Below, piece by piece: positions 8,648 through 25,940 of a DNA stretch of 64,000 nucleotides. The position numbers and the translations under genes are program-made. The stretch is taken from positions 62,001 through 126,000 of the forward strand of contig NZ_FOCM01000004.1 of NCBI RefSeq assembly GCF_900110115.1. Direction: 5' to 3'. Position 1 is the first letter of the stretch, and each line of letters starts with the position of its first letter. Below the pieces are notes generated by a model. It made no database searches and was not told where the DNA came from. It saw nothing but the letters and a program-made list of their open reading frames with translations. Source of the stretch: Palleronia pelagia (GTDB taxonomy: Bacteria > Pseudomonadota > Alphaproteobacteria > Rhodobacterales > Rhodobacteraceae).

Positions 8648-9664
8648 TTACCACAGGGCCGATTGCGATCCGCCCAGCTTGGAGTTGCCAAGAGGACGGT
8701 ACTCCTCGACGAAGGCTTCGATCTCGGGCGCGTCGAACAGCGACAGGTAGGCCTCGGCCCAGGCAAGTTCGAAGCTTTTCAACTCGTCCTCGCCGGTGCT
8801 AAACGTCTGCGGCTCGCCCGCCTTTTCCTCGACCATCTCTGGCGCCTCGAAGGCAGCGGGGATGAACTCTACCGCGCGGTGGACCGCGCCGTTGCACATC
8901 TCGAAGGTGGGATAGCCATCGTCCTGCAACAGCGCCCCGCCGACGACCAGCGGCGCCACTGCGTGGATCTGGTAGTGCAACGCGCGGGGGCCGCGCTCCA
9001 TCTCCCATTTCAGCGCGCCATCCTCGTCGGCCTGGCAGGCCACCAGCGCGAAGGTCGTGTGCGCCCAGGCCTTCAGGTAGTCGTTCCCGGCGGCCTCGCC
9101 CACGGCGGCGGCGGCGAGACCCGCCCAGGCGCGCAGGTTGTTCTGGCTGGCCATGGTCGGCGCCTCGGTGTCGAACCACTGGGTCGCGTGGCGCGCACGC
9201 TCGACCAGCCAGCCCTCGATCACCTCGGCCTGGTCGGGATCGATCTCGGCGGCGGACTTGGCCTGGAGATAGGCCAGCGCCATGGCGCCGAAGCGGGACG
9301 GCGAGGACAGGTTGGCGTTCATGCTTTCCAGGTCGCTGATCGCGTCGGCCTCGGCCCAGACGGCCAGCGCGTCGACCACGCAGGCCGCCGCTTCGGCGTC
9401 GCCGTCACGGGCAGCGTCGTTGGCCTTGCCCGTCAGCGCGACGATGAAGTCGTCGATGGGCCCCAGCGCCGCGTCGACCGCGTCGTTCGACGCCTCGTCG
9501 AGATCCGAGCGGTCCTCGCTCTCGTCTGTGTAGCGGCTCCCGTAGTCGAGCGAGACGACGGGTTCGGCCACCTCGATGCAGCTCACGTCGCTTGCCTCCT
9601 GCGCCATCAACGCGGGCGCGGGCAAGGCGGCGACAAGCGCGCCGGTCATCAGGATTCGTTTCAT
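8648..9664 (-). CDS. algL: AlgL-like (PL5 alginate lyase family) periplasmic protein lacking the catalytic His
   Basis: A 338-aa protein with a cleavable signal peptide (MKRILMTGALVAALPAPALMA). It aligns by eye over its length with AlgL of Pseudomonas: YGSRY corresponds to the TSKYEGSD region, NNLRAW to the NNHSYW active-site motif, and ERGPRALHY to the RRQRALAYH motif. The catalytic Arg and Tyr (about R224 and Y231) seem conserved, but the essential His is Leu177 and the catalytic Lys is Arg44. In Pseudomonas, AlgL is a periplasmic lyase that clears polymer trapped in the periplasm. Here it may have little or no lyase activity and a scaffold or binding role. Last gene of the operon. Confidence 0.82.
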   Translation of the reverse strand: MKRILMTGALVAALPAPALMAQEASDVSCIEVAEPVVSLDYGSRYTDESEDRSDLDEASNDAVDAALGPIDDFIVALTGKANDAARDGDAEAAACVVDALAVWAEADAISDLESMNANLSSPSRFGAMALAYLQAKSAAEIDPDQAEVIEGWLVERARHATQWFDTEAPTMASQNNLRAWAGLAAAAVGEAAGNDYLKAWAHTTFALVACQADEDGALKWEMERGPRALHYQIHAVAPLVVGGALLQDDGYPTFEMCNGAVHRAVEFIPAAFEAPEMVEEKAGEPQTFSTGEDELKSFELAWAEAYLSLFDAPEIEAFVEEYRPLGNSKLGGSQSALW

Positions 9665-9679
9665 GGCTCGTATCCTTCC

Positions 9680-12373
9680 TTACTGGATCATGCGCGCGGT
9701 CGACGCGGCCGTCTCGTTGCCCGCCTCGGCGGCGGCGGTCAGCCAGCGGCGCGACTGCGCGGCGGATTGTTCGACGCCCACGCCGTAGGCATAGGCTTGC
9801 GAAAGCAGGTACATCGCCTCGGCATTGCCACCGTCGGCGGACCGGCGCAGCAGGTCCGCATAGCGATCGGAGGTGTCGCCCGCGGCATCGCTGTCGCGCA
9901 CGATCCGCGCCAGTTCCAGTTGCGCCACCGCGTTTCCGTTCTCGGCGGCTTCGGTATAAAGCGCGCGACGGTCTATCTCGGCATTAACGATCTGGCGGAC
10001 CTGCGGGTCCGAGTACTCGAGGAAATTGAGGATTACCGGGATGTCCTCGGTATCGGCGATGCGCAGCAGGCGGATCGACATGCGGGCCGTCTCGTCGGCG
10101 GTCATCTGGATCTCGCCGTCCTGGCGCAGCGACAGGAGGCGGCGCAGCCCGACCGAATAGCCGTCATCGGCCGCCGCCCGGTAAAGCTCCAGCGCACGCG
10201 CCTCATCCGCTTCTTTGCCGCCCAGCTCGCGCAGCGCGTCGCCGATGGCGACCCGTTCCCATCCGTCGCCGCCTGAAGCGGCCTCTGCCACATCGATCCA
10301 TTGACCGACGGCATCGTCGGCCCCGATTTCCCGCAGCACCCGGGCATATTCCAATGCCTTCGACGTGGTGCAGTCGATCGTGCTGCGGATGCGGTTCCGG
10401 TATTCCTCGGTCCGCGAAGCGCTCTCCAGGTAGGGCAGCGCGAACAGCAATGCGTCCACGTCGCCGTTACGCGCGATGGCGTCCGAATAGCGCTGCCAGG
10501 CGGCGTCAGGATCGGTTTCGCCGATCTCGATCAGCGTGCGGATCGCCGCGCCGTTGCCCTCGGCGGCCAAGTCGCGCGCAAGCGTGACCAGCCGCGCGCG
10601 GCGGTCGCCGTCCAGATCCTTCGTGTCCGACAGGAGCGACACCAGCTGCGCCCGGGCGCCCGGCTCGCCCGCGTCGATGGCGCGGTCCAGTCGGTCCTCG
10701 GCGGCGCCGACATCGCCGCGGTTCAGGGCGAGCTTGGCCTCGGCCACGAACAGCGCGCCGCCCGCCTCGCGCGTCATACGGCGCATGGCGTCGCTGGCGC
10801 CGCCGGGCAGGACTTCGTGGAAATTGGCCAGGGAGCGCGACCGCATGTTGACGGCCTGCGATTGCAGTCGGGCCAGTGTCATCGGGTCGTCCTCGACCGT
10901 CAGCTCGTCCAGCCGTCCGGGATCGACCTCGACGGTCGTGTCGCCGGCGAAACTTTCCATCCGGGTCCAGTACTCGGCCTCGGACGGGACCGGCGCCACG
11001 GCCGAGCGGCAGCGGAAGATCGCTTGCAGATCCTGCATCGGCTCGGTCTGGCCGTCCACGTAGACGGCGTTGCGCAGGGTCGACACCACGTCGAGCAGGT
11101 CCTGCTCCGTCTCGGTCTCACGCAGCATCAGACCGGCCAGCCGCATCTGCGCCGCCGACAGGGACGGGTCGATTTCCACGGCCGTCCGGTAGAGCTCGGC
11201 CGCCCGGTCCGCGCCCGCCCAGCGGCCGTCCTCGGCCATCACCAGGTCGCCGCGCTGCACGTAGGCCCAGCCGGGCGTGTCGGGCGCGTCGATCATGCGA
11301 TCGAGCGCCGCCGCTAGCCGGTCGCGCTCCTCGGGCCCGTCGGCCCGGTCGCGGGCGAGGTTCACCAGCCGGATGCGCGCCGTGGGATCGCCGAAATCGG
11401 CCGCTTCCTCGTAGAGCGCGCGGGCCTCGGCCAGGTCTTGTTCGGCCAGCGCACCGCGTTCGAGAATGGCGGCCAGCTGAAGCATGGCGTAGGGCAGATC
11501 GAACCCGGCCGCCTGGCGCAGGCTCTGCATCATCAGGTCGTTGTCCTTCTCGACCTCGATGGCCTCGCGGTGCATCTCGGCCAGGTTCCAGGCGGCGTTG
11601 TGGCCGCCGAGGTCGGCCGCGAAGCGGTACCAGTCCTCGGCCAGGTCGGGATCCGGCGCGACGGCCTCGCCATCGAGGAACACTGCCGCGATGCGGTTCA
11701 CCCGGTCGCACAGGCGCGGATCGAGATCGCCCAGCAGGTCGCCCAGCGCCATGGTCACGGCCACGTCCGGTGCGATGTCCCAATCGTCCAGGTCCCGCTC
11801 GTAGGACAGCTCGACCATGCGCAGAAGCGACGCGCCGTCGCCCGCGTAAGCGGCCTGGCGCCACAGGTCGATGGCGCGGTCCTGGTCGCGCTCGACGCCC
11901 GTGCCTTCGAAAAGCAGGTCGGCCGCCGTGCGCTTGGCCGAGGTGGTTCCGCTCGGGGCAATCTCAAGCACCCTGTCCACGAGGCCGGACTCGGCCAGCT
12001 CCGCCATCCGGCCGGCGGCGACGAGCAGGTCCAGCCGGTCGAGCAGGCGGTTCGTCTCGTCGTAGCTATCGACGACCTCAAGCAGCCGGTCATTGGCCGC
12101 CTCGATGGTGTCGAACCAGCGTTCGGGGTCGTTCTGGCGCAGCAGGCGCAGGTCGCGCCGGATCAGCGCGATGTCGCGTCCGCCGACGGGTCCGCCGTCG
12201 TAGTCCTGCCAGCGTTCGGTCAGCACGTGTTGCGGCGGGCGCGGCAGACAGGTGTCGGAGCCTGCCTCGACCCGGGGCGGATCGAACGGCACCGAGACCG
12301 GGTCGGCGCGGACCGGTCCCGTCAGGGCGACAAGACCCAGGGCGGTGGCGGAGAGGGCGCGTGTGAAGGTCAT
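9680..12373 (-). CDS. Large periplasmic Sel1/TPR-like repeat protein of the alginate-like operon
   Basis: An 897-aa protein made mainly of helical Sel1-like repeats, for example YRTAVEIDPSLSAAQMRLAGLM, YRAAADDGYSVGLRRLL and LRRSADGGNAEAMYLLSQAY. The start giving MTFTRALSATALGLVAL has GGAGGA upstream, better than an ATG 30 bases earlier. A signal peptide ends near PVRADP and no lipobox Cys is present. By position and repeat type it may replace AlgK, the Sel1-type outer-membrane scaffold of Pseudomonas, but it is about twice AlgK's length and is not predicted to be lipidated. It probably binds other periplasmic export components. Confidence 0.8.
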   Translation of the reverse strand: MTFTRALSATALGLVALTGPVRADPVSVPFDPPRVEAGSDTCLPRPPQHVLTERWQDYDGGPVGGRDIALIRRDLRLLRQNDPERWFDTIEAANDRLLEVVDSYDETNRLLDRLDLLVAAGRMAELAESGLVDRVLEIAPSGTTSAKRTAADLLFEGTGVERDQDRAIDLWRQAAYAGDGASLLRMVELSYERDLDDWDIAPDVAVTMALGDLLGDLDPRLCDRVNRIAAVFLDGEAVAPDPDLAEDWYRFAADLGGHNAAWNLAEMHREAIEVEKDNDLMMQSLRQAAGFDLPYAMLQLAAILERGALAEQDLAEARALYEEAADFGDPTARIRLVNLARDRADGPEERDRLAAALDRMIDAPDTPGWAYVQRGDLVMAEDGRWAGADRAAELYRTAVEIDPSLSAAQMRLAGLMLRETETEQDLLDVVSTLRNAVYVDGQTEPMQDLQAIFRCRSAVAPVPSEAEYWTRMESFAGDTTVEVDPGRLDELTVEDDPMTLARLQSQAVNMRSRSLANFHEVLPGGASDAMRRMTREAGGALFVAEAKLALNRGDVGAAEDRLDRAIDAGEPGARAQLVSLLSDTKDLDGDRRARLVTLARDLAAEGNGAAIRTLIEIGETDPDAAWQRYSDAIARNGDVDALLFALPYLESASRTEEYRNRIRSTIDCTTSKALEYARVLREIGADDAVGQWIDVAEAASGGDGWERVAIGDALRELGGKEADEARALELYRAAADDGYSVGLRRLLSLRQDGEIQMTADETARMSIRLLRIADTEDIPVILNFLEYSDPQVRQIVNAEIDRRALYTEAAENGNAVAQLELARIVRDSDAAGDTSDRYADLLRRSADGGNAEAMYLLSQAYAYGVGVEQSAAQSRRWLTAAAEAGNETAASTARMIQ

Positions 12374-12405
12374 GGTGGGGTCCTCCGGGTCGAGGCGTGT
12401 CAAGG

Positions 12406-13023
12406 TCAGTCGGCGTAGGTGCTGTCGGCGGCGACGAGCCCGCCGTCATCGGTGACGATCACCGTGGTCGCGGTGCCGCGGCGCAGGTCGACCGGGTCGA
12501 GGCTGGCCAGCGTCTCGCCGTCCTGGCGCAGCTCGAAGGTCAGCGTCAGCGGCGCCTTCAGGCCGACCGCGTCGTGGCCGTTGGGCGCGACGTCGGACAG
12601 GGCGGCCGTCTCGGCCTCGGTGGCGTAGAGATCGAAGCTCTCCATCTCGCCGAGGTTGTAGAGCAGCAGGTCCGCCTGGGCCGGGCTTTCGGTCACGCCG
12701 TCCTCGATCAGCGGCTGCGCCTCGGCCGAGGACAGCACGGTGTAGTGGGTGCTGGCGCCGACCTCGACGGTGGTCTCCTCGTCGCCGACGGAGATGGTAA
12801 CTTCGCCCGGGGAGACCTCGGCATAGGGCGTGAGGCCCGCGTCGGTGGGATCGAGCACGGTGCCGTCGACCGTGACATTGTTCGCCTCGGGCGCGATCAC
12901 GCGCAGGAAGGACGCGTCGGGCGAGGACGGATCGGGATAAAGTCCCTCGTCCTGCGCCACCGCGGGCAGCGCGGGCAGCAGGGCGATGGGAAGGCTGAGC
13001 AGGAGCGTTCGCTTGGTCATCAT
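12406..13023 (-). CDS. algF: Alginate O-acetylation protein AlgF
   Basis: A 205-aa exported protein with a signal peptide (LLLSLPIALLPALPAVAQ) and the AlgF-type start of the mature chain, GLYPDPSSPDASFLRVIAP. AlgF is a periplasmic partner of AlgI, AlgJ and AlgX in acetylating mannuronate residues. Two adjacent ATGs overlap the algX stop codon (ATGA); GGA lies about eight bases before the first. The rest is beta-rich, with YTVLSSAEAQPL and LTFELRQDGE resembling the family. Its own catalytic activity is not established in the family. Confidence 0.85.
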   Translation of the reverse strand: MMTKRTLLLSLPIALLPALPAVAQDEGLYPDPSSPDASFLRVIAPEANNVTVDGTVLDPTDAGLTPYAEVSPGEVTISVGDEETTVEVGASTHYTVLSSAEAQPLIEDGVTESPAQADLLLYNLGEMESFDLYATEAETAALSDVAPNGHDAVGLKAPLTLTFELRQDGETLASLDPVDLRRGTATTVIVTDDGGLVAADSTYAD

Positions 13024-14336
13024 GTCTGGGGTCCTTTCACGGTACATGTGGAGATAGTCGCGCCGTCGTCGGCCGGCTGGTCGAGCTTAACGCGCACTTG
13101 GGTGTAGTCGTCGCGCCAAAGCGGGCGCGCATACTCGTAAAACCAGCGGGTGGGTCCGACCCGTTCGGAGCGCTGGATGATCGCGTCACCGGTCAAGCCG
13201 TCCTCGGTGGTGAAGCTCAGCACGGCCCGGCGGCCATTGGCGCTGCCGGTGTCCACGCCCAGATAGGTCTCGGGCGTGAACCGATCGGCTGGCAGATCGG
13301 CGGTCAGGACGCGCGGCTCCGGATTGGCCGTCTCGAGCGGCTCGCAATTCGCACCCGCCGCCGCGATCAGCTCGCGCAGCGGGCGTTCGCCAAAGCCACC
13401 GAGGTTGTTGTAGATCGGGTTTTCCCAGATCAGGACGCGCGGCGCGGTCTCGCGGAATTCTCCGGACAGCAGGAACGACGTGATGCCGCCGAACTGGTTG
13501 CCGCCGGTGATCGAGTAGTTGGCGACCTGCGCCTGGGTCTCGACCGAAATGGAATCCTCGAAGTTGAACGTCCCTTCGTCCGACATCGACGTGCCGACCA
13601 GCGCGATGGGCGGACCCGCGCTGTCGGCCGCGAAGATCCCACCGCCGTCGGCGTCGCCGCCGACCTCGGTCGTCTCGAACCGCTCGGTCCGCGGCAGCGG
13701 CAGGCTTTCGCGGCAGAAGCTCTGGATGTGGCGCCGCAGGGCCGAGTCCATCGGCTTGCTTCCGGTCGAGGTCATGTCGATCTCGGTCGTGGGCATGTCG
13801 TCCAGCGCCGGGGTCTCGTCGATCCGGTCGGCGATGGCGCCGGCCACGGCCCGCGCGCCGGCGGGCGTCCAGTGGAAGTCGAGCCCGATGAAGGGCGCGC
13901 GGTCCTCGGGCAGCGCCCGCATCGCGGCGACCGTGTCGATCGCGGCCACGCCGGCGGCGTCGAGCTCGGACAGGAACGCGGCGTAGCCGGTCTGTGCCAG
14001 GTCCTCGTCATAGCCGTAATCGGCTGCCGCCGCGGGCAACTTGCCGGGCATGGCGAGGCTTTTCGTCGGGACGGGCACGTAGATCAGCTGCGTCCCCCGC
14101 TCGGCAAGGACGCGGCTCAAGGTGCCCACCGTCTCGGCCGCGGCGGTCGACAGCGGGTGGTAGGTCCGCATGTTCAGGTTCAGGCGATAGAAGAACCCGT
14201 CCTGCCCTTCCAACACGGGCAGTTCGTCGGCGGTGGCAAGCCCGCGGCAGTCGTAGGCCGAGGCGTCCTGTGCGGCGGCCAGTCCGGTGCCGGCCACGAG
14301 AAGCCCCGCGGCCAGGGGAAGCGATCGGAAGCTCAT
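13020..14336 (-). CDS. algX: Alginate O-acetyltransferase AlgX
   Basis: A 438-aa periplasmic SGNH-like acetyltransferase with a signal peptide (LAAGLLVAGTGLAAAQ). The catalytic residues are visible: DFHW with D153 and H155, and GTSMS with nucleophile S250, matching the Asp-His-Ser triad of AlgX. The C-terminal portion from about residue 340 is beta-rich and fits the carbohydrate-binding module of AlgX. In Pseudomonas, AlgX transfers acetyl groups onto the polymer. It overlaps algF by four bases and the preceding gene by four bases, so translation is coupled. Confidence 0.9.
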   Translation of the reverse strand: MSFRSLPLAAGLLVAGTGLAAAQDASAYDCRGLATADELPVLEGQDGFFYRLNLNMRTYHPLSTAAAETVGTLSRVLAERGTQLIYVPVPTKSLAMPGKLPAAAADYGYDEDLAQTGYAAFLSELDAAGVAAIDTVAAMRALPEDRAPFIGLDFHWTPAGARAVAGAIADRIDETPALDDMPTTEIDMTSTGSKPMDSALRRHIQSFCRESLPLPRTERFETTEVGGDADGGGIFAADSAGPPIALVGTSMSDEGTFNFEDSISVETQAQVANYSITGGNQFGGITSFLLSGEFRETAPRVLIWENPIYNNLGGFGERPLRELIAAAGANCEPLETANPEPRVLTADLPADRFTPETYLGVDTGSANGRRAVLSFTTEDGLTGDAIIQRSERVGPTRWFYEYARPLWRDDYTQVRVKLDQPADDGATISTCTVKGPQT

Positions 14337-15058
14337 TGCGTGTCCTTTCCGGTGTCGTCGTTGCGGGCGTCGAGCTGCGCGAGCAGCGAGCGCGCGGCGG
14401 TGCGGGTGCCCAGCGTGTCGCCATCCTCGGCGGCCAGGGACAGGATCCCGCGCAGCCGATCGGGTGCGACCGCGCCCGGGTTCTGCAGGGCGTTCGACCC
14501 GATCCGGAGGGCCGCCGCGCCGTCACCGGCCTCGGCCCGTTCCAGCAGCAGCGACCGGGCCCGGTCGGGATGGCGGCCGAAGGGTTCGCCGGTCTCGTAG
14601 AACCGCGCCAGCGCCTCGCCCGCCTCGGGATAGCCCTGCACCGCCATGGTGCGCATGGCGTTCTCAAGGTGGTCGAGCCGCTTGTCCGACACGTCGAGAC
14701 CGGGGCGTTCGAGGATGCGGATCAGCGGGCCCAGCGCGTAGTCGCGCCCGGTGAACACGGCCGAGGCGTAGTAGAGCGCGGCATCGCCAACCAGGTCGTC
14801 GGCGTTGTCGAGCTCCATCAGACGGTTGGCATAGCGGAACGCGGCTAGGCCGTCGCCCGCATCGGCGAGCGCCCGCATCTCGGGGAAACTCAGGTAGCCG
14901 TCGTTCAACATGCGCTTGCGGTCGCGTTGCAGCTGCCAGGTGGGCAGATCGTCCGTCCGGGTCACGCGGTCGTCGATGACCGCCTGCGCGGCCAGGGGAC
15001 CCGCGAGCGAAACGGCGATAAGGCCCGCGAGGGCCGCGGGAAGGCGTCGATCAGCCAT
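14333..15058 (-). CDS. Periplasmic Sel1-like repeat protein, alginate-like operon
   Basis: A 241-aa protein with a signal peptide (LPAALAGLIAVSLAGPLAAQA) and no lipobox. The mature part is helical with Sel1/TPR-like units such as ADAGDGLAAFRYANRLMEL, AVQGYPEAGEALARFYETG and AEAGDGAAALRIGSNALQ. It lies between algJ and algX and overlaps both, so it probably works with the acetylation machinery or the export scaffold. It is a second candidate for an AlgK-like function but lacks the lipid anchor. No gene symbol is assigned. Confidence 0.78.
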   Translation of the reverse strand: MADRRLPAALAGLIAVSLAGPLAAQAVIDDRVTRTDDLPTWQLQRDRKRMLNDGYLSFPEMRALADAGDGLAAFRYANRLMELDNADDLVGDAALYYASAVFTGRDYALGPLIRILERPGLDVSDKRLDHLENAMRTMAVQGYPEAGEALARFYETGEPFGRHPDRARSLLLERAEAGDGAAALRIGSNALQNPGAVAPDRLRGILSLAAEDGDTLGTRTAARSLLAQLDARNDDTGKDTQ

Positions 15059-16121
15059 TGCTGGCCTCCTCGGTGTCGGTGTGTTTCGGCGCGCCCAGGT
15101 AGCGGACCGGGAATTCCCAGATCACGTGCGCGGGCGGCGCATCGGCGAAGGCCGGGTCGGAAAGAACATCGCGCATGGGCGCGATCGGGCCCCGGCCCTC
15201 TTCGGCCAGGTTCAGGATGTCGCGCCCGAGCGCGATCTTGAGCGCGGGGACGAAGCTCCAGGCCTCGTTCGCGCTGTAGCTCGTGCCGACGAGCACCGTG
15301 TCGATGGGGTCGTCGTCGGAGGCGAAGATGCCGCCTTCCGTCGCGTCGGCTTCCTCTGCCACGTAAGGGGTGACCCGCTCGGGTCCAAGCCCCACCCGGG
15401 GCGCGAAATCGTCGGTGGTGACGAACGAAACAAGGTCACCGATGAATTCTTCGGGTCGTGCCGGGACCTTGGCGAACTCCTTGTCGCCGCGAGAAATTTT
15501 TTCGGAACCCGCCACGGCCTCGGCCACGTCCGCGGCGCCCGCGGGGGTCCAGTGGGTATCGCGGGTCAGGAAAACCGGATCGCCGTCCACATCGGCCAGG
15601 GCGGGGCGGGTATCGACGCTCTCGACCCCAGCCTCGTGCAGCGCGGCGCGAAAGGCGAGATACTGCTCTTCCATCGCGGCGCCGGCCTCGGCATCGCCCC
15701 GGTCGCGGTAGATGTCGATCTTGGCCGGAACCGGCACGACGGTCAGCTCGCTGCCCAGGGCATCGAGCTCGGCGTCGACCTCTTCGATGATGCGGGTCGC
15801 GGTCGCGATCTCGGGCGTCGTGGCGCGCTGGAACTCCTCGTCGGAGAACAGCCAGCCGTCCTCGCCCGCGGTGACGCCGTCGCGGCCCTCGCCGATCAGC
15901 GCGTAGCGCGCCGCGCCGATGAGGCCCACGGCCGTGTCGCGATGGGGCTGCGCCTGCCCGTAGAGCGTGTCGAGCGACAGCGCCGCGCGGCCGGTGACCA
16001 CGTCGCCCTCGACCTCGCCGGGCAGCCCCTCGCCGAAGATGGCGAGGTTCACGACCACGGCGTAGCCCAGGAACAGGATCGGGACGCTGTAGCGTATGGT
16101 CTTCAGGATCGTCTGCATCAT
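15051..16121 (-). CDS. algJ: Alginate O-acetyltransferase AlgJ
   Basis: A 356-aa protein with one N-terminal membrane anchor (YSVPILFLGYAVVVNLAIF) and a periplasmic SGNH-like domain. The catalytic elements are DTHW (D188, H190) and GTSYS (S281), close to their spacing in Pseudomonas AlgJ. AlgJ is thought to receive acetyl groups delivered across the membrane by AlgI and pass them on toward AlgX and the polymer. It follows algI after nine bases. No key residue is missing. Confidence 0.92.
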   Translation of the reverse strand: MMQTILKTIRYSVPILFLGYAVVVNLAIFGEGLPGEVEGDVVTGRAALSLDTLYGQAQPHRDTAVGLIGAARYALIGEGRDGVTAGEDGWLFSDEEFQRATTPEIATATRIIEEVDAELDALGSELTVVPVPAKIDIYRDRGDAEAGAAMEEQYLAFRAALHEAGVESVDTRPALADVDGDPVFLTRDTHWTPAGAADVAEAVAGSEKISRGDKEFAKVPARPEEFIGDLVSFVTTDDFAPRVGLGPERVTPYVAEEADATEGGIFASDDDPIDTVLVGTSYSANEAWSFVPALKIALGRDILNLAEEGRGPIAPMRDVLSDPAFADAPPAHVIWEFPVRYLGAPKHTDTEEASNG

Positions 16122-16130
16122 GTCGGTCCT

Positions 16131-17552
16131 TCAGAACTGGAAGTAGAGGAAGGGCGAGAAGCTCTGCTCGGCGAGCTTCAGGATCGTGAGGGTCGCCAGC
16201 GCGGTGACCGCGATGGGCGGAACGATGGCGCTGGTCGCCGTCAGCGTGCCGTCTGGACGCGGCGACAGCGGGCCATCCACCGCGCGGCCGAGCCAGGGCT
16301 CGATCATCGCCACGAGGATGGCCAGGATCAGCACGGCGACGCTTTCGCCGGTGATCTCGAAGGCCGCCGCCGGCGACAGGGCGATGCCGTTGGCCCCGAA
16401 CATGCCCGCGAAGACCTGCCCCGCCTCGACCACGGATGTCGCGCGGAACACGACCCAGCCGAGCAGCACGACGATCAGCGTGCGCAGCAGCGCGGCGGTC
16501 GAGCGGGACGTGGCCCAGCCCGAGAACCGCTCCCACGCCAGCCACGCGCCGTGCCAGAAGCCCCAGATCACGAAGGTCCAGGCCGCGCCGTGCCAAAGGC
16601 CCCCCAGCACCATGATCGTCATCAGGTTGACGTGGGTGCGCACGGGACCCAGGCGGTTGCCGCCCAGCGGGATGTAGAGGTAGTCGCGCAGCCAGACCGA
16701 CAGCGAGATGTGCCAGCGGCGCCAGAACTCGGTGATCGAGCGCGAGATATAGGGCGCGTTGAAATTCTCGGTGAAGCGGAAGCCCAGCATCATGCCAAGC
16801 CCGATCGCCATGTCCGAATAGCCCGAGAAATCGAAGTAGAGCTGCATCATGTACGCAACGGCCCCAGCCCAGGCGAGCGCCATGGACGGATCGGGCGTCG
16901 AGAAGGCAAGGTCGGCCAGCGGGGCCACGGCATCGGCCAGCAGCACCTTCTTCGCCAGCCCGATGAAGAAGCGCATCATCCCGTCCGAGAACATCTGGAC
17001 CGAGTGGGTGCGGTGCCGGAACTGGTGGGCCAGATCCTTGTAGCGCAGGATCGGCCCAGCGATGAGCTGCGGGAACAGCGCGATGAACGCCGCGAAGTCG
17101 AGCGGGTTCACGTCCTCGGGCGCATCGCCGCGATAGGTATCGACGAGATAGCTCACCGACTGGAACACGTAGAACGACACGCCGATGGGCAGGATGATCT
17201 GCCAGTGCACACCGATGGCGTCGGGCGTGGTGCCAACAAGCCCGGTCAGGCTATCGAGGAAGAAGTTGAAATACTTGAAGAAGCCCAGCACAGCGAGGCA
17301 ACCCGCCACGCCGATCCCGGTCCAGACCCTGGCGATCCGGTCGGTCGCGGCATGACGGATCATGCGGCCGGTGATCCAGGTCCAGGCCGTCGTGCCGATC
17401 AGCAGCAACAGGAAATCGACCCGCCACCACGCGTAGAAGACGTAGGAGACGCCCAGCAGCGTCAGCGACTTCCAGCGGCCCGGCGTCAGGTAGTAGAGCG
17501 CCAGCGCCAGCGGCAGGAACAGGAACAGGAAAGTCTCAGAGGAAAAGACCAT
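16131..17552 (-). CDS. algI: MBOAT-family acetyl transporter AlgI
   Basis: A 473-aa polytopic membrane O-acyltransferase. It begins MVFSSETFLFLFLPLALALYY, a typical AlgI/DltB-type N-terminus, and contains FWRRWHISLSVWLRDYLYIP and the conserved-His segment LGGLWHGAAWTFVIWGFWHG. AlgI moves acetyl groups from a cytoplasmic donor to periplasmic AlgJ/AlgX. The stop of the epimerase-like gene overlaps this start by one base. The sequence looks intact, so polymer acetylation is likely. Confidence 0.94.
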   Translation of the reverse strand: MVFSSETFLFLFLPLALALYYLTPGRWKSLTLLGVSYVFYAWWRVDFLLLLIGTTAWTWITGRMIRHAATDRIARVWTGIGVAGCLAVLGFFKYFNFFLDSLTGLVGTTPDAIGVHWQIILPIGVSFYVFQSVSYLVDTYRGDAPEDVNPLDFAAFIALFPQLIAGPILRYKDLAHQFRHRTHSVQMFSDGMMRFFIGLAKKVLLADAVAPLADLAFSTPDPSMALAWAGAVAYMMQLYFDFSGYSDMAIGLGMMLGFRFTENFNAPYISRSITEFWRRWHISLSVWLRDYLYIPLGGNRLGPVRTHVNLMTIMVLGGLWHGAAWTFVIWGFWHGAWLAWERFSGWATSRSTAALLRTLIVVLLGWVVFRATSVVEAGQVFAGMFGANGIALSPAAAFEITGESVAVLILAILVAMIEPWLGRAVDGPLSPRPDGTLTATSAIVPPIAVTALATLTILKLAEQSFSPFLYFQF

Positions 17553-18919
17553 CAGGTGGTGCCCTCTCCGGAACAGGTTTCAAAAGCGGCCTGCGCGGCG
17601 TCGCGGCGCAGGGGCGTGGGGTCGAGCGAGCGGACGCCGTCGACGCTCAGCTCGTCCGTGTCGGCGCGCAGGAAGGCAGGCGTCATCTGGTCGAGGTCAC
17701 CCGACAGCAGCCGCGGGCGCTGATCGCGGAAATCGTTGGCGTGCAGGCGGATCTCGGCAAGGCCGGTGCCCCGCAGCCCCATGCGGTTGCCCGCGAAGGT
17801 GCTGGAAGTGACGAGCACGCGGGTCTCGGGGCGTTGCCGGTCGATCATCAGGCCGGGGCCGTCATTGTCGACGAGGCGGCTGTCGCTGACGATGGCGGTG
17901 CCGGCGCCGCGCATGGCCAGACCCGCGCCATTGTTGCCGGCGATCTCGACATTTTGCATGAGCACGCAGGTCGCGCCCTGCGCCAGCGTGGCGCCGGACC
18001 CGTCGAAGCCGTTCACGGCCACGTCCGAAAGCCGCATCGCGCGGCTGGTATCGTCCACGCGCAGGCCCTTGCCCTGCCCCCCATCGAGGTCGATATCGAC
18101 AAGACCCATCCCGGTGACCCCGGACAGGTGCAGCGCCTGTGGTCCGCCGGTGTCTCGCACCGAAAGGCCCGCCAGGGTGCCGCCGTCGACATCGCGCAGC
18201 ATCAGGCCGGTGCCCCGCGCGCCGTCGATGGTGTTCTCGCTCAGGTTCACGCCATCGAGCCCTTGCAGGACCACGCCGCGCATGTCTTTGAAATCGTTTC
18301 CGGTCATCGCTGCCGGGCTACCGAAGCTCATCAGGCCCCGGCCGCCCAGGAACAGCCCGGCACTGTAGGGCCGATCACCGTAGCCGAGACCGGTGAGGGT
18401 CGCGTTCTTCAGCGACAGGCTTTGCGGGCCCAGCGCGGCGATGAAGGGACGGAAGCCCTCGATCTCGGGGTGGATGTCCGGCCCCGCGGCGACGGTCGCG
18501 CCGTCCACCGCGAGTTGCCCGAAGGCCAGGACATAGCTGCCCGCACCGCGCGACAGCTCAAGCCGGTCGCCCGCTTCAAGGCGCAGGGACGCGCCCTGCA
18601 GAAGCACGATGGGCAGCTCGGCCGAAAAGCCGTCCGCGTCCCGGGTCAGCACGTCCGGGTGGCCCTTGGCGTCCAGAAGATCGTCCAGCTCGGCCAGGGT
18701 CACGTCGCCCGCGCTCAGGTAGATCGCGTCGCCGTCCCGCGCCTCGGCCAGCAGGTCGGAGTCGATTTCGACCCCGCCGCCGGTGGCGAGCTGCGTCAAC
18801 GCCAGCCGCACGCCAGAGACCGAGGCGCGAACCTCGTCCTGGGCGACGGCGGGCGCGGCCAACGGCAGCGCAAGCGCCGCCGCCAGGCCGAAACGGGTGA
18901 GCCATTCAGGCGCGCGCAT
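17552..18919 (-). CDS. algG: AlgG-like beta-helix protein without the epimerase DPHD motif
   Basis: A 455-aa periplasmic protein with a signal peptide (LAAALALPLAAPAVAQ) and a parallel beta-helix of repeated short units (residues about 150-400). The stretch FRPFIAALGPQSLSLKNA resembles the FRPF region of AlgG, the mannuronan C5-epimerase. Where AlgG has YGIDPHDRS, this protein reads GTGLMLRDVDGG (residues 236-247), so the catalytic DPHD is absent. It may be a structural homologue that protects or guides the polymer. The start is placed at MRAPEWLTRF, with GGAAGG eight bases upstream; it overlaps the manC end by 14 bases. Confidence 0.8.
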   Translation of the reverse strand: MRAPEWLTRFGLAAALALPLAAPAVAQDEVRASVSGVRLALTQLATGGGVEIDSDLLAEARDGDAIYLSAGDVTLAELDDLLDAKGHPDVLTRDADGFSAELPIVLLQGASLRLEAGDRLELSRGAGSYVLAFGQLAVDGATVAAGPDIHPEIEGFRPFIAALGPQSLSLKNATLTGLGYGDRPYSAGLFLGGRGLMSFGSPAAMTGNDFKDMRGVVLQGLDGVNLSENTIDGARGTGLMLRDVDGGTLAGLSVRDTGGPQALHLSGVTGMGLVDIDLDGGQGKGLRVDDTSRAMRLSDVAVNGFDGSGATLAQGATCVLMQNVEIAGNNGAGLAMRGAGTAIVSDSRLVDNDGPGLMIDRQRPETRVLVTSSTFAGNRMGLRGTGLAEIRLHANDFRDQRPRLLSGDLDQMTPAFLRADTDELSVDGVRSLDPTPLRRDAAQAAFETCSGEGTT

Positions 18920-20309
18920 ACCGCTTGCCTTCCCACGGCGCGTCCGCGTCGTCGTCGCCAAGGTCGATCTCGAAGATCCGCAGCGGATCGTCGCCGGTGT
19001 TCCACAGCTCGACCGAGCTGCCGGGCGCGACGTTCACGTTCTGCCCGGGGCTGCAATCGTGCACGGGTCCGCCGTTCTTCCAACGGCCCTGCCCGTCCGA
19101 CACGGCCAGCAGTTTGCCGCCCGACGCGGTGCCGCGGAAGGTCGCGGATTCGCCCACGTCCAGCGTGCGGCGCGACACGGCCGGCACGGCCCTGCCGCCC
19201 TGGCCGATATCCGCCGGCGCCGACTCGGAATGGCGTGCGACCTCGCTGCGGCCGTCGGCCTTCAGGCGGGTCACCGCGTCCTTCACCTTCTGGGCGTTGG
19301 CGTGGTTCGTCACGAGAAGCGCGTCGGGTGTGTCCACCACGATCACGTCGTCCATGCCGATCACGGTCACCAGCTTGTCGCCCGCGCGGATCAGTGAATT
19401 GCGGGTGTCGAAGGTCATGGCCTCGCCGCTGGAGACGTTGCCGTCGTCGGTCTTCGGGCTGATCGAATGGATGGCGGTCCACGCCCCCACGTCGTTCCAG
19501 TCCACCGAAACGGGCGCCACGGCGACGCGGTCCGAGCGTTCGAAGATCAGGCGTTCGGTCGGCTCGTTCGCGGCGTTGCGGAACGGTGCCTCCGACAGCT
19601 TGACGCCCGTCTCGGTCACCTTGGCATCGGCGATCGCCGCGCGTACGGCGGCCAGGGTGTCGGGATCGTGCTTGGCGAATTCGTCGATCAGGACATCGGC
19701 GCGCATCATCGAGATGCCCGACGCCCAGAGCGTGTCCCCCGCGGCCACGAGGCGCTCGGCCTCTTCGAGGGCCGGCTTCTCGATGAAGCGGCTGACCTCG
19801 TACAGACCTTCCTGCTCGTCCGTGGGCGCGCCGCAGGTGATGTATCCGAAGCCGGTCTCGGCGTGTTTCGGCACCACGCCGAACAGCACGATCCGTCCCG
19901 CCTCGGCGCCGGGGCGCATTGCAGTGACGACGGTGTTCATGTCGCCCTCGATCTTGTGGTCAGAGGGCAGCACCAGCATGGTCGCGGACGGATCGTCCTT
20001 GGCCAGCGTCAGCGCGGCGGCCAGGACGGCGGGGCCGGTGTTGCGGCCCACCGGTTCGCCCACGAAGCGGGCCGGCGTTTCGATCGCGGCTAGCTGGTCG
20101 CGCACCAGGATCTCTTCCGAAGCGGCGGCGATCAGCAGCGGGTCGGCGAACCCGTCGCCGCGGTGCCGCGCGACGGTCGCCTGCAGGAAGCTGGGGCCGC
20201 CCACGCCGTCAACGGATTGAAACTGCTTGGGTTGAGCGACGCGGGACATCGGCCAAAGGCGTGTCCCCATGCCGCCCGACAATACGACGGGATGAATAAT
20301 GCTGCTCAT
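18906..20309 (-). CDS. algA: Mannose-1-phosphate guanylyltransferase with degenerate isomerase domain
   Basis: A 467-aa cytoplasmic enzyme that makes GDP-mannose from mannose-1-phosphate and GTP, the precursor used by AlgD. The nucleotidyltransferase domain is intact: LSGGMGTRLWPMSR near residue 10, PKQF, and the active-site FIEKP. The family usually also carries a C-terminal type II phosphomannose isomerase cupin with RPWG and QMHHHR...EHW. Here residues about 350-467 resemble a cupin but lack those His residues, so isomerase activity is probably lost. The name manC would serve equally well. The start codon overlaps the alg44 stop (TAATG). Confidence 0.9.
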   Translation of the reverse strand: MSSIIHPVVLSGGMGTRLWPMSRVAQPKQFQSVDGVGGPSFLQATVARHRGDGFADPLLIAAASEEILVRDQLAAIETPARFVGEPVGRNTGPAVLAAALTLAKDDPSATMLVLPSDHKIEGDMNTVVTAMRPGAEAGRIVLFGVVPKHAETGFGYITCGAPTDEQEGLYEVSRFIEKPALEEAERLVAAGDTLWASGISMMRADVLIDEFAKHDPDTLAAVRAAIADAKVTETGVKLSEAPFRNAANEPTERLIFERSDRVAVAPVSVDWNDVGAWTAIHSISPKTDDGNVSSGEAMTFDTRNSLIRAGDKLVTVIGMDDVIVVDTPDALLVTNHANAQKVKDAVTRLKADGRSEVARHSESAPADIGQGGRAVPAVSRRTLDVGESATFRGTASGGKLLAVSDGQGRWKNGGPVHDCSPGQNVNVAPGSSVELWNTGDDPLRIFEIDLGDDDADAPWEGKRYARA

Positions 20310-21439
20310 TATTGGTCTCCATTCTGGGTAATGCGATTGAAAATCGGCAGGACGGTTTCGTCCCGGAAGGCGCGCGCTTCGGTCAGCGCTTCGCCGGTGA
20401 GAGTGGTCCAGTCGACGCCGAACGCGTCGCGCGTGACACTGAGCGCCGCCACCTGGCCGGCGGTGTCGTCGGGAAGGTCGATGGAGGGCACGAGGTTCGT
20501 GCGCACCAGCCCATCGGACCCCACGGCGCCCGGCGCGCGGAAGCCTTCGGCCAGCGTCGCGCGGAATTCGGCGCCACCGGGCAGCGTCACGTCGACACCG
20601 CCGGTCTGTTGCACTTCGAACAGAAGCTCCTGCGGCAGGCGTGCCTCAATGGTCAGGGCGGCGTCCTCGGGCGACACGGCGAACAGCGGCTCGCCGGCGA
20701 GGACGGTGCTGCCCTCGGTCACCGAGATCGGCTGCGCCACGCCGTCGATCGGCATGGCGATCGACAGCGTTTCGCCGTCCACGGTGTCGAGCGCGAAGAG
20801 CACGTCGCCGGCCTGGGCCTCGGCGTCGATGAAGCTGATCTGGCCGTCCGCGGTGGCGCGGATCGTCTGCCCCTCGGGCACGACGCGGCCGGGGGCGGCG
20901 ATGTCGGTGGTGAACAGGCGCGCCTGCATCAGGCTCACGGCCAGGGCGATCAGTGCGACGGTCAGCGCCAGGACCATCAGGGTCGCGGCGCCGCTGCGGA
21001 CGCGCTGACCGACGGTCGGCTTGCCCGGGGCACCGCTGCCGCCGTTCTTGGGCTGGGCTAGCGCGCCCGACCGGATCAGGCGGCCCGAGCTGGTCAGGTC
21101 CCCCGAGATATAGTCGTTCAGGACCTGGCGCAGCTGGGCGGAGTGGTCGCCGGTCGGCTCGGAGAAGACCAGCACGCCGGTATTGTCGTCGATCACGCGG
21201 ACCTGCGCGGCGGGCGACAGGGCCAGCTGGAAGCCGGGAAAATCGAAGATCAGCCGCACGATGTTCTGGGTGCCGTCGATGCCCCGGTCGATCAGGCCGG
21301 TGACCTGTGCCGTGGTCATCGACAGCCCGTCGCCGGAATAGCGGCGTCCGTCGATCACGGCGGTGAACGGGATGTCGATCAGCGGGTGTTCGTTCCCGGC
21401 CGAAAGCGGCGCGGGGGACGTGTCGGGTGCGTGTGTCAT
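20309..21439 (-). CDS. alg44: Alg44-like copolymerase protein with degenerate PilZ region
   Basis: A 376-aa inner-membrane protein: cytoplasmic N-terminal PilZ-like region (residues about 15-120), one membrane helix near 136-157 (LMVLALTVALIALAVSLMQA) and a periplasmic membrane-fusion-like domain with a lipoyl/barrel-sandwich pattern (GRVVPEGQTIRATADGQI). In Pseudomonas, Alg44 binds c-di-GMP through RxxxR and DxSxxG and activates Alg8. Here the first motif position reads EHPLI and the second GLSMTTA, so the binding residues are missing. It sits between alg8 and manC as expected for an Alg44 role. Confidence 0.85.
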   Translation of the reverse strand: MTHAPDTSPAPLSAGNEHPLIDIPFTAVIDGRRYSGDGLSMTTAQVTGLIDRGIDGTQNIVRLIFDFPGFQLALSPAAQVRVIDDNTGVLVFSEPTGDHSAQLRQVLNDYISGDLTSSGRLIRSGALAQPKNGGSGAPGKPTVGQRVRSGAATLMVLALTVALIALAVSLMQARLFTTDIAAPGRVVPEGQTIRATADGQISFIDAEAQAGDVLFALDTVDGETLSIAMPIDGVAQPISVTEGSTVLAGEPLFAVSPEDAALTIEARLPQELLFEVQQTGGVDVTLPGGAEFRATLAEGFRAPGAVGSDGLVRTNLVPSIDLPDDTAGQVAALSVTRDAFGVDWTTLTGEALTEARAFRDETVLPIFNRITQNGDQ

Positions 21440-21460
21440 TGGGTGCGTCCTGTCGGTCGT

Positions 21461-22924
21461 TCAGAGAAGTCCGGTCGCGAGCGCCGCGCCGAGTGTGAGC
21501 CAGCCCAGCGCGAGGCCGTGCATGTAGGTGGAGGAGGCCGAGCGCAGCCGCGCGCCCAGCGGCATCCGCGCCGCCGCCTTCTTCGAGGCCTGGCGCGTCC
21601 ATTTCTGCCGGTCGAGCCGGAACAGCGCCGAGCTCTTGACCGAGGCGCCGACGACCTGCCCGAAGTACAGCAGCGGCGCGTAGACGATGGGGAAGCCGCC
21701 GCCCCGGAAGGTCGAGAGCATCCAGCAGAAGACGTAGCGGGTGAACATGACCCAGGCGATGTAGGCGGGGATCACGGCGGGCGTCAGGAACAGCGCGGTC
21801 AGCGCGATGGAGATCGGGCCGAACAGCGTGGTCCAGATCGACACGCGCTGGTCGAGGATCGACCACCATGTGAAGAACCCGATCCGCGCCGGCCCCAGCC
21901 CCAGCGCGCGGCCGTTGGTGCGCAGCATGTTGCCGAACCACCGCTTCATCAGCGCCACGGCGCTTTCGAAGAAGCCCGGCATAGGCTGGTCCTCGTACGA
22001 GACGCAGTGCACGTCCGGCAGGTAGGTCATGTGGTAGCCGCGGCTGAGCAGCCAGAACCAGGTCGACTTGTCGTCGCCGGTCAGGAAGTTGATGCGTCCC
22101 AGCCGCCAGTGGTCGATGTGGTCGGACTGCACCTGGCGGATGAAGGACGGGTCGGTGGCGAGATCCGCGCGGAAGACCGACATGCGGCCCGTCAGCGTCA
22201 GGACCCGGCCGCCGAACGCCATGGACGACATCATCATCTGGCGCTGCATGAAGCGCAGGTCGAACCAGTTGCGGAACAGCCAGTCGTTCGGGATCTCGAC
22301 GGATTCGTCGGTGGTCAGCGCGCCGACGCGGTCGTCGGTGAAGAAGGGCGCCGCGCGCGCGACGATGTCGGCGGGAACGGCGCTGTCGCCGTCCACGAAC
22401 AGCATGATGTCGTCACGCCGGGGCGCCTCACGCTGCAACAGCCGCAGCGACCGGGCGATGGCGTCGCGTTTCCCCGACCCGGGGATCTGGTCGATGATGA
22501 AGCGGACATCGGGCATGTCCGCGCGCCGCGCCTCGAACAGGTCGCGCAGCACCCGCAGGTCGGCCCCGTCCACCACCGACGCGACGATGGTGGCGCCACC
22601 GGGGGACCGGCGGGCGGCCTCGAAGATCGAGCCGTAGACCGCGGTCGTCACGCCCGGTTTGATCTTGAAGGTCGTGACCATGAAATAGGCGTGAGCGGGC
22701 ACGGCCCGGCCGGCATAGGCCGCCTCGGCCCGCGCGCGACTGCGGGGATAGATCCACCGGGTATAGGCCGTCGCGCGCAGGAAGTTCAGGGTGGCCCATC
22801 CATACCGCCACAGGCCGATCGCGCCGAGCACCACGATGGCTTCTTCGGCGGCGGCGAAGCTGGTGTCGCGCACGGCGAGCGCCAGGGCCAGGAAGGCCGC
22901 GATATAGATGAGATGACCCAGCAT
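21461..22924 (-). CDS. alg8: Alg8-like processive glycosyltransferase (mannuronan synthase)
   Basis: A 487-aa inner-membrane family 2 glycosyltransferase that should polymerise mannuronate from GDP-mannuronate. N-terminal membrane helices are followed by a cytoplasmic GT domain with FVDGDS (DxD), DHIDHW, TGDDKSTWFW and LMKRWFGNMLR (the QxxRW-equivalent), then several C-terminal membrane helices. The pattern fits Alg8 rather than cellulose synthase, and algD and alg44 flank it. Catalytic motifs look intact. The start is six bases after the algD stop. Confidence 0.93.
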   Translation of the reverse strand: MLGHLIYIAAFLALALAVRDTSFAAAEEAIVVLGAIGLWRYGWATLNFLRATAYTRWIYPRSRARAEAAYAGRAVPAHAYFMVTTFKIKPGVTTAVYGSIFEAARRSPGGATIVASVVDGADLRVLRDLFEARRADMPDVRFIIDQIPGSGKRDAIARSLRLLQREAPRRDDIMLFVDGDSAVPADIVARAAPFFTDDRVGALTTDESVEIPNDWLFRNWFDLRFMQRQMMMSSMAFGGRVLTLTGRMSVFRADLATDPSFIRQVQSDHIDHWRLGRINFLTGDDKSTWFWLLSRGYHMTYLPDVHCVSYEDQPMPGFFESAVALMKRWFGNMLRTNGRALGLGPARIGFFTWWSILDQRVSIWTTLFGPISIALTALFLTPAVIPAYIAWVMFTRYVFCWMLSTFRGGGFPIVYAPLLYFGQVVGASVKSSALFRLDRQKWTRQASKKAAARMPLGARLRSASSTYMHGLALGWLTLGAALATGLL

Positions 22925-22930
22925 GGCGGC

Positions 22931-24250
22931 TTACCAGCAGATGCCTTGGTAACCCGCGTCGCTGACGACGTCAGGGTCGATACGGCCGAGATCGACCACG
23001 CGGCGGTTGCCGAGGCTGCCTTTCAGCCGCTCGGTCACCTCGGGGTACTTGTTGCCCACGACGATGACTTCGCTGTCCTCGATCAGCTTGTCGATATCGT
23101 CTTCCATCCGCTCGGACAGGTCGGGAACGACGGCGTTGCCGCGTCCCACGGCGCTCGGGTCGTTGGCGAAGGCGGTGGCGACATAGGGATCGTAGACGCG
23201 CACCTCCTGGCCGCTGTCGATCAACCGCGCGGCCAGGTCGGCCAGCGGGCTTTCACGCAGGTCGTCGGTGCCCGACTTGAAGCTCACGCCGACAAGGCCG
23301 ACGGCCTTCTTCGACGCCGCGCGCACCATGGTCTCGGCCCGCTCGATCTGGGCGTCATTGGCCTCGAGGATGGCGTTCAGAAGCGGCGTGGCGATGCCCG
23401 AGGACTGGCCCACGGCCTTCAGCGCGCGCACGTCCTTGGGCAGGCACGAGCCGCCGAAGGCGAAGCCGGGCCGCAGGAAGGCCGGCGACATGGCGACCTT
23501 GGTGTCGGAACACAGGATCGACATCACCTTCTGGCCGTCGAGCTCGTTCGCCTTGGCGATGTTGCCGATCTCGTTGGCGAAGCTGATCTTGGCCGCGCGC
23601 CAGCTGTTCGACGTGTACTTCACCATCTCGGCGGTGCGGATATCGACCTTGTTCATCTCGCAGGGCAGGTCCTGGTTGATCTCGGTCAGGATCTGTTCGG
23701 TCTGCTCGTCGAGGCTGCCGAAGACGATCAGGCCGGGATCGGCGTAGTCCTCGATCGCGGTGCTTTCGCGCAGGAACTCGGGGAAGTAGCCGACGCCGAA
23801 ATCACGGCCGGCCCGCTTGCCCGACGCCTTTTCCAGCGTGGGAATACAGACCTCTTCCATGGTGCCGGGCACGATGGTCGAGCGCATGATGACGGTGTGG
23901 CGGTCCCGCTTGGCGGCGATGGCACGGCCGATATCCTCGCAGACGGACACCACGAAATCGAGCCCGACCGACCCGTCCGGCGCCGACGGCGTGCCGACGC
24001 AGACGAAGGACGCGTCGGTCTTGGCGACGGCCTCGGCGGCATCGGTGGTGGCGGTCATGCGGCCGCTTTCGGCCATCTCGGCGACGAGGGCATCGAGGCC
24101 CTTCTCGACGATGGGCGCGCGGCCGGCATTCAGCCCGTCCACCTTGTCCTGGTCGAGGTCGACGGCAATCACCTCGTGGCCGTCGCGGGCCAGGCACGCC
24201 GCGGACACGACGCCCACGTAGCCGATCCCGAAAACACTGATCTTTGTCAT
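22931..24250 (-). CDS. algD: GDP-mannose 6-dehydrogenase AlgD
   Basis: A 439-aa cytoplasmic NAD-dependent four-electron dehydrogenase that converts GDP-mannose to GDP-mannuronate, the committed step of alginate synthesis. The start at MTKISVFGIGYVGVV has AAGGAAG upstream; the frame stays open far upstream without a better start. Visible are the Rossmann motif GIGYVG, the catalytic Cys269 in FGGSCLPKD, SFKSGTDDLRESP, and the C-terminal GYQGICW that is typical of GDP-mannose dehydrogenases. First gene of the twelve-gene operon. Confidence 0.96.
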   Translation of the reverse strand: MTKISVFGIGYVGVVSAACLARDGHEVIAVDLDQDKVDGLNAGRAPIVEKGLDALVAEMAESGRMTATTDAAEAVAKTDASFVCVGTPSAPDGSVGLDFVVSVCEDIGRAIAAKRDRHTVIMRSTIVPGTMEEVCIPTLEKASGKRAGRDFGVGYFPEFLRESTAIEDYADPGLIVFGSLDEQTEQILTEINQDLPCEMNKVDIRTAEMVKYTSNSWRAAKISFANEIGNIAKANELDGQKVMSILCSDTKVAMSPAFLRPGFAFGGSCLPKDVRALKAVGQSSGIATPLLNAILEANDAQIERAETMVRAASKKAVGLVGVSFKSGTDDLRESPLADLAARLIDSGQEVRVYDPYVATAFANDPSAVGRGNAVVPDLSERMEDDIDKLIEDSEVIVVGNKYPEVTERLKGSLGNRRVVDLGRIDPDVVSDAGYQGICW

Positions 24251-24365
24251 GGCTCTTCCTTCTCTGGCCCTTCGGACCGCATCGAAATCCGTGTCGGACG
24301 GCAGTCCCGCCCGGTTCGATTGAGAAGGTAAGGAAAGTTGCTGGGTCCCATCAGTCGGGAAAGCG

Positions 24366-25752: not shown

Positions 25753-25841
25753 GAGGGAACTCCGTAAGTGCGACGGGAAAATGAGCCCGCTTCGAATTTG
25801 TTCCTGCGAACCTGTCTGGTTTCCGGCCGTCTCCTGCAAGA

Positions 25842-25860: not shown

Positions 25861-25940
25861 ATTCGGCAAACCTCCGCCGATTGACGTGGCGGAGCCCCGG
25901 CACGCCGGCCGCGGCCGTCGCCGGTCCATCACTGGTCCTC

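Follow-up and report, generated by a model that had tools for sequence, protein, structure and literature searches.

An alginate-type operon of Palleronia pelagia, conserved in Rhodobacterales and Rhizobiales and predicted to produce acetylated polymannuronate

Introduction

The alginate operons of Pseudomonas and Azotobacter have the gene order algD-alg8-44-K-E-G-X-L-I-J-F-A. The present work deals with a related operon of the alphaproteobacterium Palleronia pelagia, contained in a stretch of 64,000 nucleotides (assembly GCF_900110115.1, contig NZ_FOCM01000004.1, positions 62,001 to 126,000 of the forward strand). This stretch is called the window, and its own positions are used throughout; the assembly from which it comes (3.85 Mb in 25 contigs, estimated completeness 99.96%) is called the window genome. 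The genes suggest, and we hold this reading with moderate confidence, that the operon belongs to a conserved alphaproteobacterial branch of alginate-type systems whose polymer would be a polymannuronate built of mannuronate only, O-acetylated in this host, with the AlgG homologue acting as a scaffold.

Atypical alginate operons without algKE are already published, according to the parts of Bundalovic-Torma et al. 2020 (PMC7112194) that concern them. The mannuronan passages of a 2015 review (PMC4444821) state that a mannuronan producer had not been identified in nature, mention the stiffness of the chain as a possible reason, and describe pure mannuronan as a substrate for making defined alginates. 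A gene of Salipiger/Yangia sp. CCB-MM3 is placed under alginate biosynthesis in a section of PMC7892980, and it lies on another replicon than the plasmid cluster inspected here. No paper naming the clade described below was found by title or opening of the abstract among open-licence papers, whose long result lists were covered in part.

Organisation, distribution and conservation of the operon

The operon is intact and consists of twelve genes, all on the minus strand, which run from position 24253 to position 8648, with intervals of no more than about 20 bases between them or with short overlaps. Read 5' to 3', the order is algD, alg8, alg44-like, manC, algG-like, algI, algJ, a gene of 241 amino acids, algX, algF, a large Sel1 gene and algL-like. 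Pfam and NCBIfam back eleven of the twelve genes at family level or better, the exception being the 241-amino-acid one. The first-pass annotation, which had described a twelve-gene alginate-like operon with an order different from that of Pseudomonas and manC in fourth place, was right on both points.

A relative of Alg8 at E <= 1e-30 is present in 41 of the 295 genomes of the host's family, at an identity of at least 54% in 21 of them and only at 31-39% in the remaining 20. The nearest named Alg8 is that of Palleronia salina (98% identity) and, in the scan of named genomes, the best 80 of 232 loci belong to Rhodobacteraceae and their kin, Rhizobium/Agrobacterium, Devosia, Roseibium and Martelella. 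Profile searches on 114 loci plus the window, with some genomes represented twice, distinguish 69 loci of type A (algI present), 22 of type B (without algI, algJ and algF) and 24 that are neither or too short (loci and genomes are cited below by L and G numbers). The window has the gene order that is common in type A. A quick tree of Alg8 unites type B in a single cluster nested in type A, with a support of 100 in the Shimodaira-Hasegawa-like approximate likelihood ratio test (20 rows, 19 of them typed and one truncated), and places an additional type B row, from Martelella, on a long branch with a support of 87; type B apparently arose twice. Both types occur together in two genomes, G183 (L043/L044) and Jannaschia pagri (L142/L145), and in the type A copies of these genomes, as well as in L143, no algD or manC was found within the stretch examined.

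The system is also found on plasmids, with an Alg8 match at E <= 1e-20 in 14 of 72,556 plasmid records. In the two records inspected the AlgG homologue is labelled as a beta-helix or NosD-domain protein, AlgX is hypothetical and only algL is named after alginate; with labels so sparse the system is easily missed. A second alg8-like system exists in the same family (L053-L061, L064 and L065; Alg8 identity 36-39%), mostly accompanied by algD and by a gene of LuxR type; six of its loci have a full-length manC that keeps the isomerase motif.

Comparison with Palleronia salina gives ratios of nonsynonymous to synonymous substitution rates (dN/dS) of 0.029-0.219 over the operon genes, with few changes per gene (algG 0.123 and algL 0.070; the algL partner was taken from L176 and Sel1 was compared over 302 codons only), which indicates purifying selection. 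The idea of tailoring functions disarmed together in this one operon is not supported, because the same residue changes recur across the clade, among the members studied from Rhodobacteraceae, Rhizobiaceae and Devosia, and dN/dS against P. salina is 0.03-0.22. The operon thus looks like part of a stable system instead of a decaying one, and on the same grounds local decay into pseudogenes was rejected.

The AlgG homologue

The algG-like gene (17552..18919) encodes a beta-helix protein without the catalytic DPHD motif. The NCBIfam model of AlgG matches it weakly (E 1.3e-5), a profile made from 47 clade members (A1) matches AlgG from P. syringae (4ozz) at E 2.3e-39, and its structural model, with a predicted local distance difference test score (pLDDT) of 92.5, finds AlgG 4nk6 as the best fold in the PDB (E 5.5e-14, template modelling score 0.56). 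The AlgG sites considered here are Tyr314, Asp317, His319 and Arg345.

The catalytic role of the DPHD histidine in AlgG is documented in PMC4444821, at least in its passages on the enzyme. In the profile alignment of 86 rows this histidine is absent from all 84 clade rows that cover the site, which show a gap there, the 85th (L033) being truncated. Tyr314, Asp317 and His319 are kept in the outgroup L062 only; Arg345 is shared by L062 with two rows of the clade. L062, whose Alg8 is 31% identical, serves as positive control, for its Tyr, DGHD and Arg fall in the same AlgG columns. A misaligned motif was considered and ruled out by the profile match, by the fold match (despite a score of only 0.56) and by the columns of L062. 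The loss of key residues that had been read from this one epimerase homologue is thus a property of the clade, and it is very unlikely, judging from these alignments, that the protein is an epimerase of the known kind.

It could be argued that the protein remains enzymatic, its groove having acquired another set of catalytic residues, and that the polymer contains guluronate or another epimer; its gene is retained in both operon types and its dN/dS against P. salina is 0.12. However, the columns of the catalytic sites are variable, the commonest residue at Tyr314 and Arg345 occurring in just 18 and 19 of the 86 rows, and the twelve invariant columns of A1 hold only G, F, L, C, N and Q, with one nearly invariant Asp, whereas those of AlgL include R, Y, N, W, H, E and Q. 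We regard this explanation as quite improbable. A second AlgG was not found in the window genome with the model NF038177 at E <= 1. In 20 genomes, either carriers or outgroups, no match to the same model reaches the cut-off of 700 bits, which is a weak test; matches at E <= 0.001 appear in 16 of them, one lying outside the operon (G082, contig C15, E 6.8e-4). The AlgG homologue is probably a scaffold, by analogy with AlgX of type B, which is retained as a protein after the loss of its site.

The acetylation genes

The genes for O-acetylation form a complete set in the window: algI (16131..17552, MBOAT O-acyltransferase by Pfam), algJ (15051..16121, SGNH acetyltransferase, Pfam ALGX, with AlgJ 4o8v at E 4.7e-43), algX (13020..14336, SGNH acetyltransferase, Pfam ALGX) and algF (12406..13047, Pfam AlgF at E 1.1e-11). 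Their catalytic motifs were said to be intact and they are, with the LWHG histidine in AlgI, DTHW and GTSYS in AlgJ, and DFHW and GTSMS in AlgX; the same is true of FGGSCLPKD in AlgD.

The two operon types differ in AlgX. Among 60 type A rows, one or two of them gapped at the sites, the catalytic His is kept in 59 of 59 and the Ser in 58 of 58. In type B neither residue survives in any of the 20 rows, where R, Q or L stands for His and D, E, R or G for Ser, and the protein keeps 39 of the 68 columns conserved in type A. The genes algI, algJ and algF and the chemistry of AlgX are therefore lost together while the AlgX protein stays, which argues that the acetylation set is functional in the window and that AlgX has a structural role as well. 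Since type B is nested in type A, the pattern also indicates that active sites without use are lost in this clade and the protein is retained. In this way evolution has set structural and catalytic roles apart in the two types: AlgG and the AlgX of type B are kept without their catalytic residues, and AlgL is retained with an altered site.

The AlgL homologue

The last gene, algL-like (8648..9664), belongs to polysaccharide lyase family 5 (PL5; Pfam Alginate_lyase, E 2.5e-22). Its model (pLDDT 91) matches PL5 folds, the best being 7fi2 (E 2.2e-13), with AlgL 4ozv at E 8e-13. Aligned to 4ozv, it has Leu177 in place of the catalytic His and keeps Asn176, Arg224 and Tyr231. In the numbering of P. 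aeruginosa AlgL, His202 is replaced by Leu in 52 of 53 rows (23 of profile A2 and 30 added, some species appearing twice), Asn201, Trp205, Arg249 and Tyr256 are invariant, and all 53 rows share the replacements of Lys66 by Arg, Ser203 by Arg and Tyr259 by His. The exception at His202 is L193, Rhizobiales bacterium AFS091568, where the catalytic His is present beside the other clade changes. An earlier set of 30 rows, seven of which A2 excludes for length, redundancy or choice (the outgroup L052 among them), has Leu in 29, that is in all its clade rows, and His in L052. The AlgL of L132 is truncated and lacks the last three sites.

According to the mechanistic part of PMC8511899, the syn-elimination of mannuronate by PL5 lyases depends on Asn and Arg for neutralisation and on Tyr as both acid and base, and the His can serve as base on guluronate. 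The H202A mutant of P. aeruginosa AlgL has no detectable activity in vitro, polymannuronate included, and behaves like the wild type in vivo, as reported in the mutant section of PMC8829089. The description of the lyase as disarmed is therefore not supported: the catalytic His is indeed replaced by Leu, but Asn, Arg and Tyr are invariant and the corresponding Pseudomonas mutant is wild-type-like in vivo. The AlgL homologue looks remodelled, not plainly dead; a restriction to mannuronate would fit the conservation, and inactivity is possible.

A relative of AlgL is present in all 38 named type A genomes searched, 30 of these relatives having been added to the rows above, and no second PL5 protein was found in the window genome at E <= 1. 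Three Rhizobiales genomes (G303, G306 and G300) have second, more distant PL5 proteins (E 3e-66 to 4e-40), which are perhaps true lyases.

Precursor supply and polymerase

The first gene, algD (22931..24253), encodes a GDP-mannose 6-dehydrogenase (GMD) whose best match in the PDB is the P. aeruginosa enzyme 1mfz (E 3.4e-128, 432 bits), the best UDP-glucose dehydrogenase reaching 241 bits; by these scores AlgD is of the GMD kind and not of the UDP-glucose dehydrogenase kind. The manC gene (18906..20309) encodes a GDP-mannose pyrophosphorylase in which TIGR01479 covers model positions 1-358 of 467 only. Its isomerase motif QxHxHR is absent from all 84 clade rows (two of them short, and L033 taken as a clade row) and present in 6 of 6 full-length outgroup rows, so the isomerase loss noticed at first extends to the whole clade. 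In the window genome, neither a type I phosphomannose isomerase (PF20511, E <= 0.01) nor a MannoseP_isomer match over the cut-off (PF01050; three matches below it, best E 0.018) was found. It does contain two PGM/PMM matches and one AGE-family protein (PF07221, C10:71426-72469), which may be a candidate isomerase.

The putative polymerase, Alg8 (21461..22924), is a glycosyltransferase of family 2 (GT2) by Pfam, with only a weak NodC match in NCBIfam. It is conceivable, though unlikely in our view, that the product is not a mannuronate homopolymer, Alg8 using another donor or making a heteropolymer; in favour of this are the placement of Alg8 by family and the weak NodC match. What speaks against it is the supply of GDP-mannuronate through a GMD-like AlgD and the fact that the operon has a single glycosyltransferase.

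Regulation, Sel1 proteins and export

The RxxxR sequence is the motif by which PilZ domains bind cyclic diguanosine monophosphate (c-di-GMP). The alg44-like gene (20309..21439) encodes a degenerate PilZ-like N-terminus followed by an HlyD-like part (Pfam HlyD_3), and its family profile (A3) matches the PilZ domain of Alg44 (4xrn) weakly (E 0.0054) and in the second half of the domain only. RxxxR is absent by eye in 27 of 27 aligned rows and by pattern search in all 96 rows, in agreement with the missing key residues reported at first; this search has no positive control, and since the two outgroup rows among the 96 also lack the motif, its absence is not shown to be specific to the clade. Alg44 is probably independent of c-di-GMP, to judge from this region.

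Two LuxR-type regulators (Pfam GerE) lie upstream of algD on the same strand (24451..25086 and 25093..25932). Genes of this type precede the operon in 54 of the 69 loci of type A and in none of the 22 of type B. A scan for promoters and terminators upstream of the operon found nothing. The genes downstream of the operon presumably encode a UspA-like protein and an AGCS symporter.

The 241-amino-acid gene (14333..15058), which has no Pfam match, is Sel1-like by its family profile against the Sel1 structure 8sxq (E 4.3e-8) and occurs in both operon types. The large Sel1-repeat protein (9680..12373, 907 amino acids from the first start, Pfam Sel1) belongs to a family whose profile matches AlgK at E 1.2e-5 (7ula) and E 1.1e-4 (3e4b), generic Sel1 proteins scoring far better; a lipobox is present in 3 of 83 rows by a simple pattern. 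It may be the counterpart of AlgK, and the view of the Sel1 genes as mere insertions is not supported.

Of 20 genomes, 19 have no match to the AlgE porin (PF13372) at E <= 0.01; the matches of the remaining one, G279, are on contigs C17 and C20 and its operon is on C12. When the neighbours of 90 loci of type A or B were clustered, no exporter gene conserved beside the operon was recognised in the largest clusters. What emerged instead was a beta-helix/RTX protein in type A and a PF14099 lyase in type B, together with an apparently mixed ABC-transporter cluster.

Neighbouring genes

Of the 69 loci of type A, counted with their duplicates and often too short to judge, 20 encode a beta-helix protein near the operon, as does L122. 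Clustering was done with the beta-helix domain alone, as the RTX repeats pull in unrelated RTX proteins. Of these 21 neighbours, 20 are upstream and 20 have RTX motifs, L032 being the exception in both respects. These proteins (L079:5031-7424, L110:4135-6960 and 19 others) have a strongly conserved K-Y-RH-RDINFHGG pattern, and they are possibly a new family of polysaccharide lyases or epimerases.

This architecture, which we take to recall that of the AlgE-type epimerases, leads to another explanation, in which these secreted proteins epimerise a mannuronate-based polymer, or modify it in another way, once it has left the cell, and the final product contains guluronate. The recurrence of the gene, nearly always upstream, is in its favour. 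Nevertheless, the DPH[DE] motif is found in none of the 21 proteins, and no such protein was found in the window or within the 10 kb upstream of alg8 in L066, from Palleronia salina, so the explanation is of low probability (a DNA pattern for RTX-like repeats is uninformative in the GC-rich DNA of the window).

Upstream of the operon in 13 of 22 type B loci there is another neighbour cluster, and the three members scanned all match the PF14099 polysaccharide lyase. These lyases (for instance L039:14331-15341 and L132:7328-8593) have by eye a lipoprotein-like N-terminus, and in 12 of 13 cases their gene is encoded on the strand opposite to the operon. Both kinds of neighbours may have the extracellular polymer as their substrate.

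Proposed pathway

Returning to the polymannuronate reading, ManC and AlgD would supply GDP-mannuronate, and Alg8 with Alg44 would polymerise it and extrude the polymannuronate, as homology suggests. AlgI, AlgJ, AlgX and AlgF, with their motifs intact, would add O-acetyl groups. The AlgG homologue, a beta-helix without known chemistry, probably only guides or shields the chain, and as a consequence no guluronate would arise in the periplasm. Removal of stray polymer probably remains the task of the AlgL homologue, now restricted to mannuronate, and the large Sel1 protein probably replaces AlgK. Alg44 is probably no longer a c-di-GMP sensor and the LuxR-type regulators may control transcription. 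The simplest product predicted from the GDP-mannuronate supply, the full acetylation set and an AlgG without the DPHD residues is still an acetylated polymannuronate in which guluronate is scarce or absent, close to the guluronate-free polymer proposed in the first-pass annotation. For type B, which lacks AlgI, AlgJ and AlgF and has an AlgX without catalytic residues, plain polymannuronate is predicted.

More tentatively, and with rather less confidence than the reading for this host, the proposal can be extended to the whole branch of Rhodobacterales and Rhizobiales: a natural pure polymannuronate, acetylated or, in the derived type with AlgX as a dead scaffold, plain, together with no c-di-GMP control, no AlgE porin and an AlgL restricted to mannuronate because its substrate would have no guluronate.

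Several points weigh against these proposals. What is proposed about the polymer, about AlgG as a scaffold, about the specificity of AlgL and about the independence from c-di-GMP is inferred from the genes. The window genome has no AlgE porin match (PF13372, E <= 1), an absence that the first-pass annotation did not mention; with the missing isomerase, it leaves gaps in export and in precursor supply. Alg8 has been placed by its GT2 family and not by alignment to an Alg8 of proven activity or product, and the control missing from the Alg44 motif search has been mentioned. The AlgL homologue could be inactive, given that the H202A mutant of AlgL is inactive in vitro and that the H168A mutant of Smlt1473 is termed inactive in PMC8511899, where that mutant is mentioned; besides, L193 keeps the His, and the AlgL of L137, outside the 53 rows, carries Pro and Ala where the other rows have acquired Arg. 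The beta-helix/RTX neighbour of some type A relatives could be an extracellular modifying enzyme, though without DPH[DE], and no search was aimed at AlgE-type epimerases elsewhere in the window genome. Finally, a search of one other genome of the genus, the only one covered, gave no match to Alg8 at E <= 1e-30.

Comparison with known systems

The operon shares with those of Pseudomonas and Azotobacter the homologues of algD, alg8, alg44, algG, algX, algL, algI, algJ, algF and manC, as well as the acetylation motifs. It differs from them in that manC is fourth and without the isomerase motif, AlgG lacks DPHD, AlgL has Leu for His202, Alg44 lacks RxxxR, a large Sel1 protein probably takes the place of AlgK and no AlgE was found. 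In its rearranged order and in the absence of algKE or of parts of the modification set, it resembles the atypical alginate operons of PMC7112194, whose examples are assigned to deep-sea bacteria in the S5 legend of that work and whose passages on them do not deal with catalytic residues.

As for the lyase, the clade has the fold and the Asn, Arg and Tyr of mannuronate syn-elimination in common with the PL5 enzymes AlgL (4ozv), Smlt1473 (7fhu) and PanPL (7wxm), and departs from them, in nearly all its rows, by the four replacements given above at His202, Ser203, Lys66 and Tyr259, with L193 and L137 as exceptions. A functional parallel is with the laboratory mannuronan producers that carry a mutant AlgG, treated in the corresponding passages of PMC4444821, in which, as would be expected here, the product has mannuronate only. 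In contrast to those strains, the clade is natural and common to Rhodobacterales and Rhizobiales, and it offers a natural test of what the review says on the lack of known natural producers and on chain stiffness as a possible reason.

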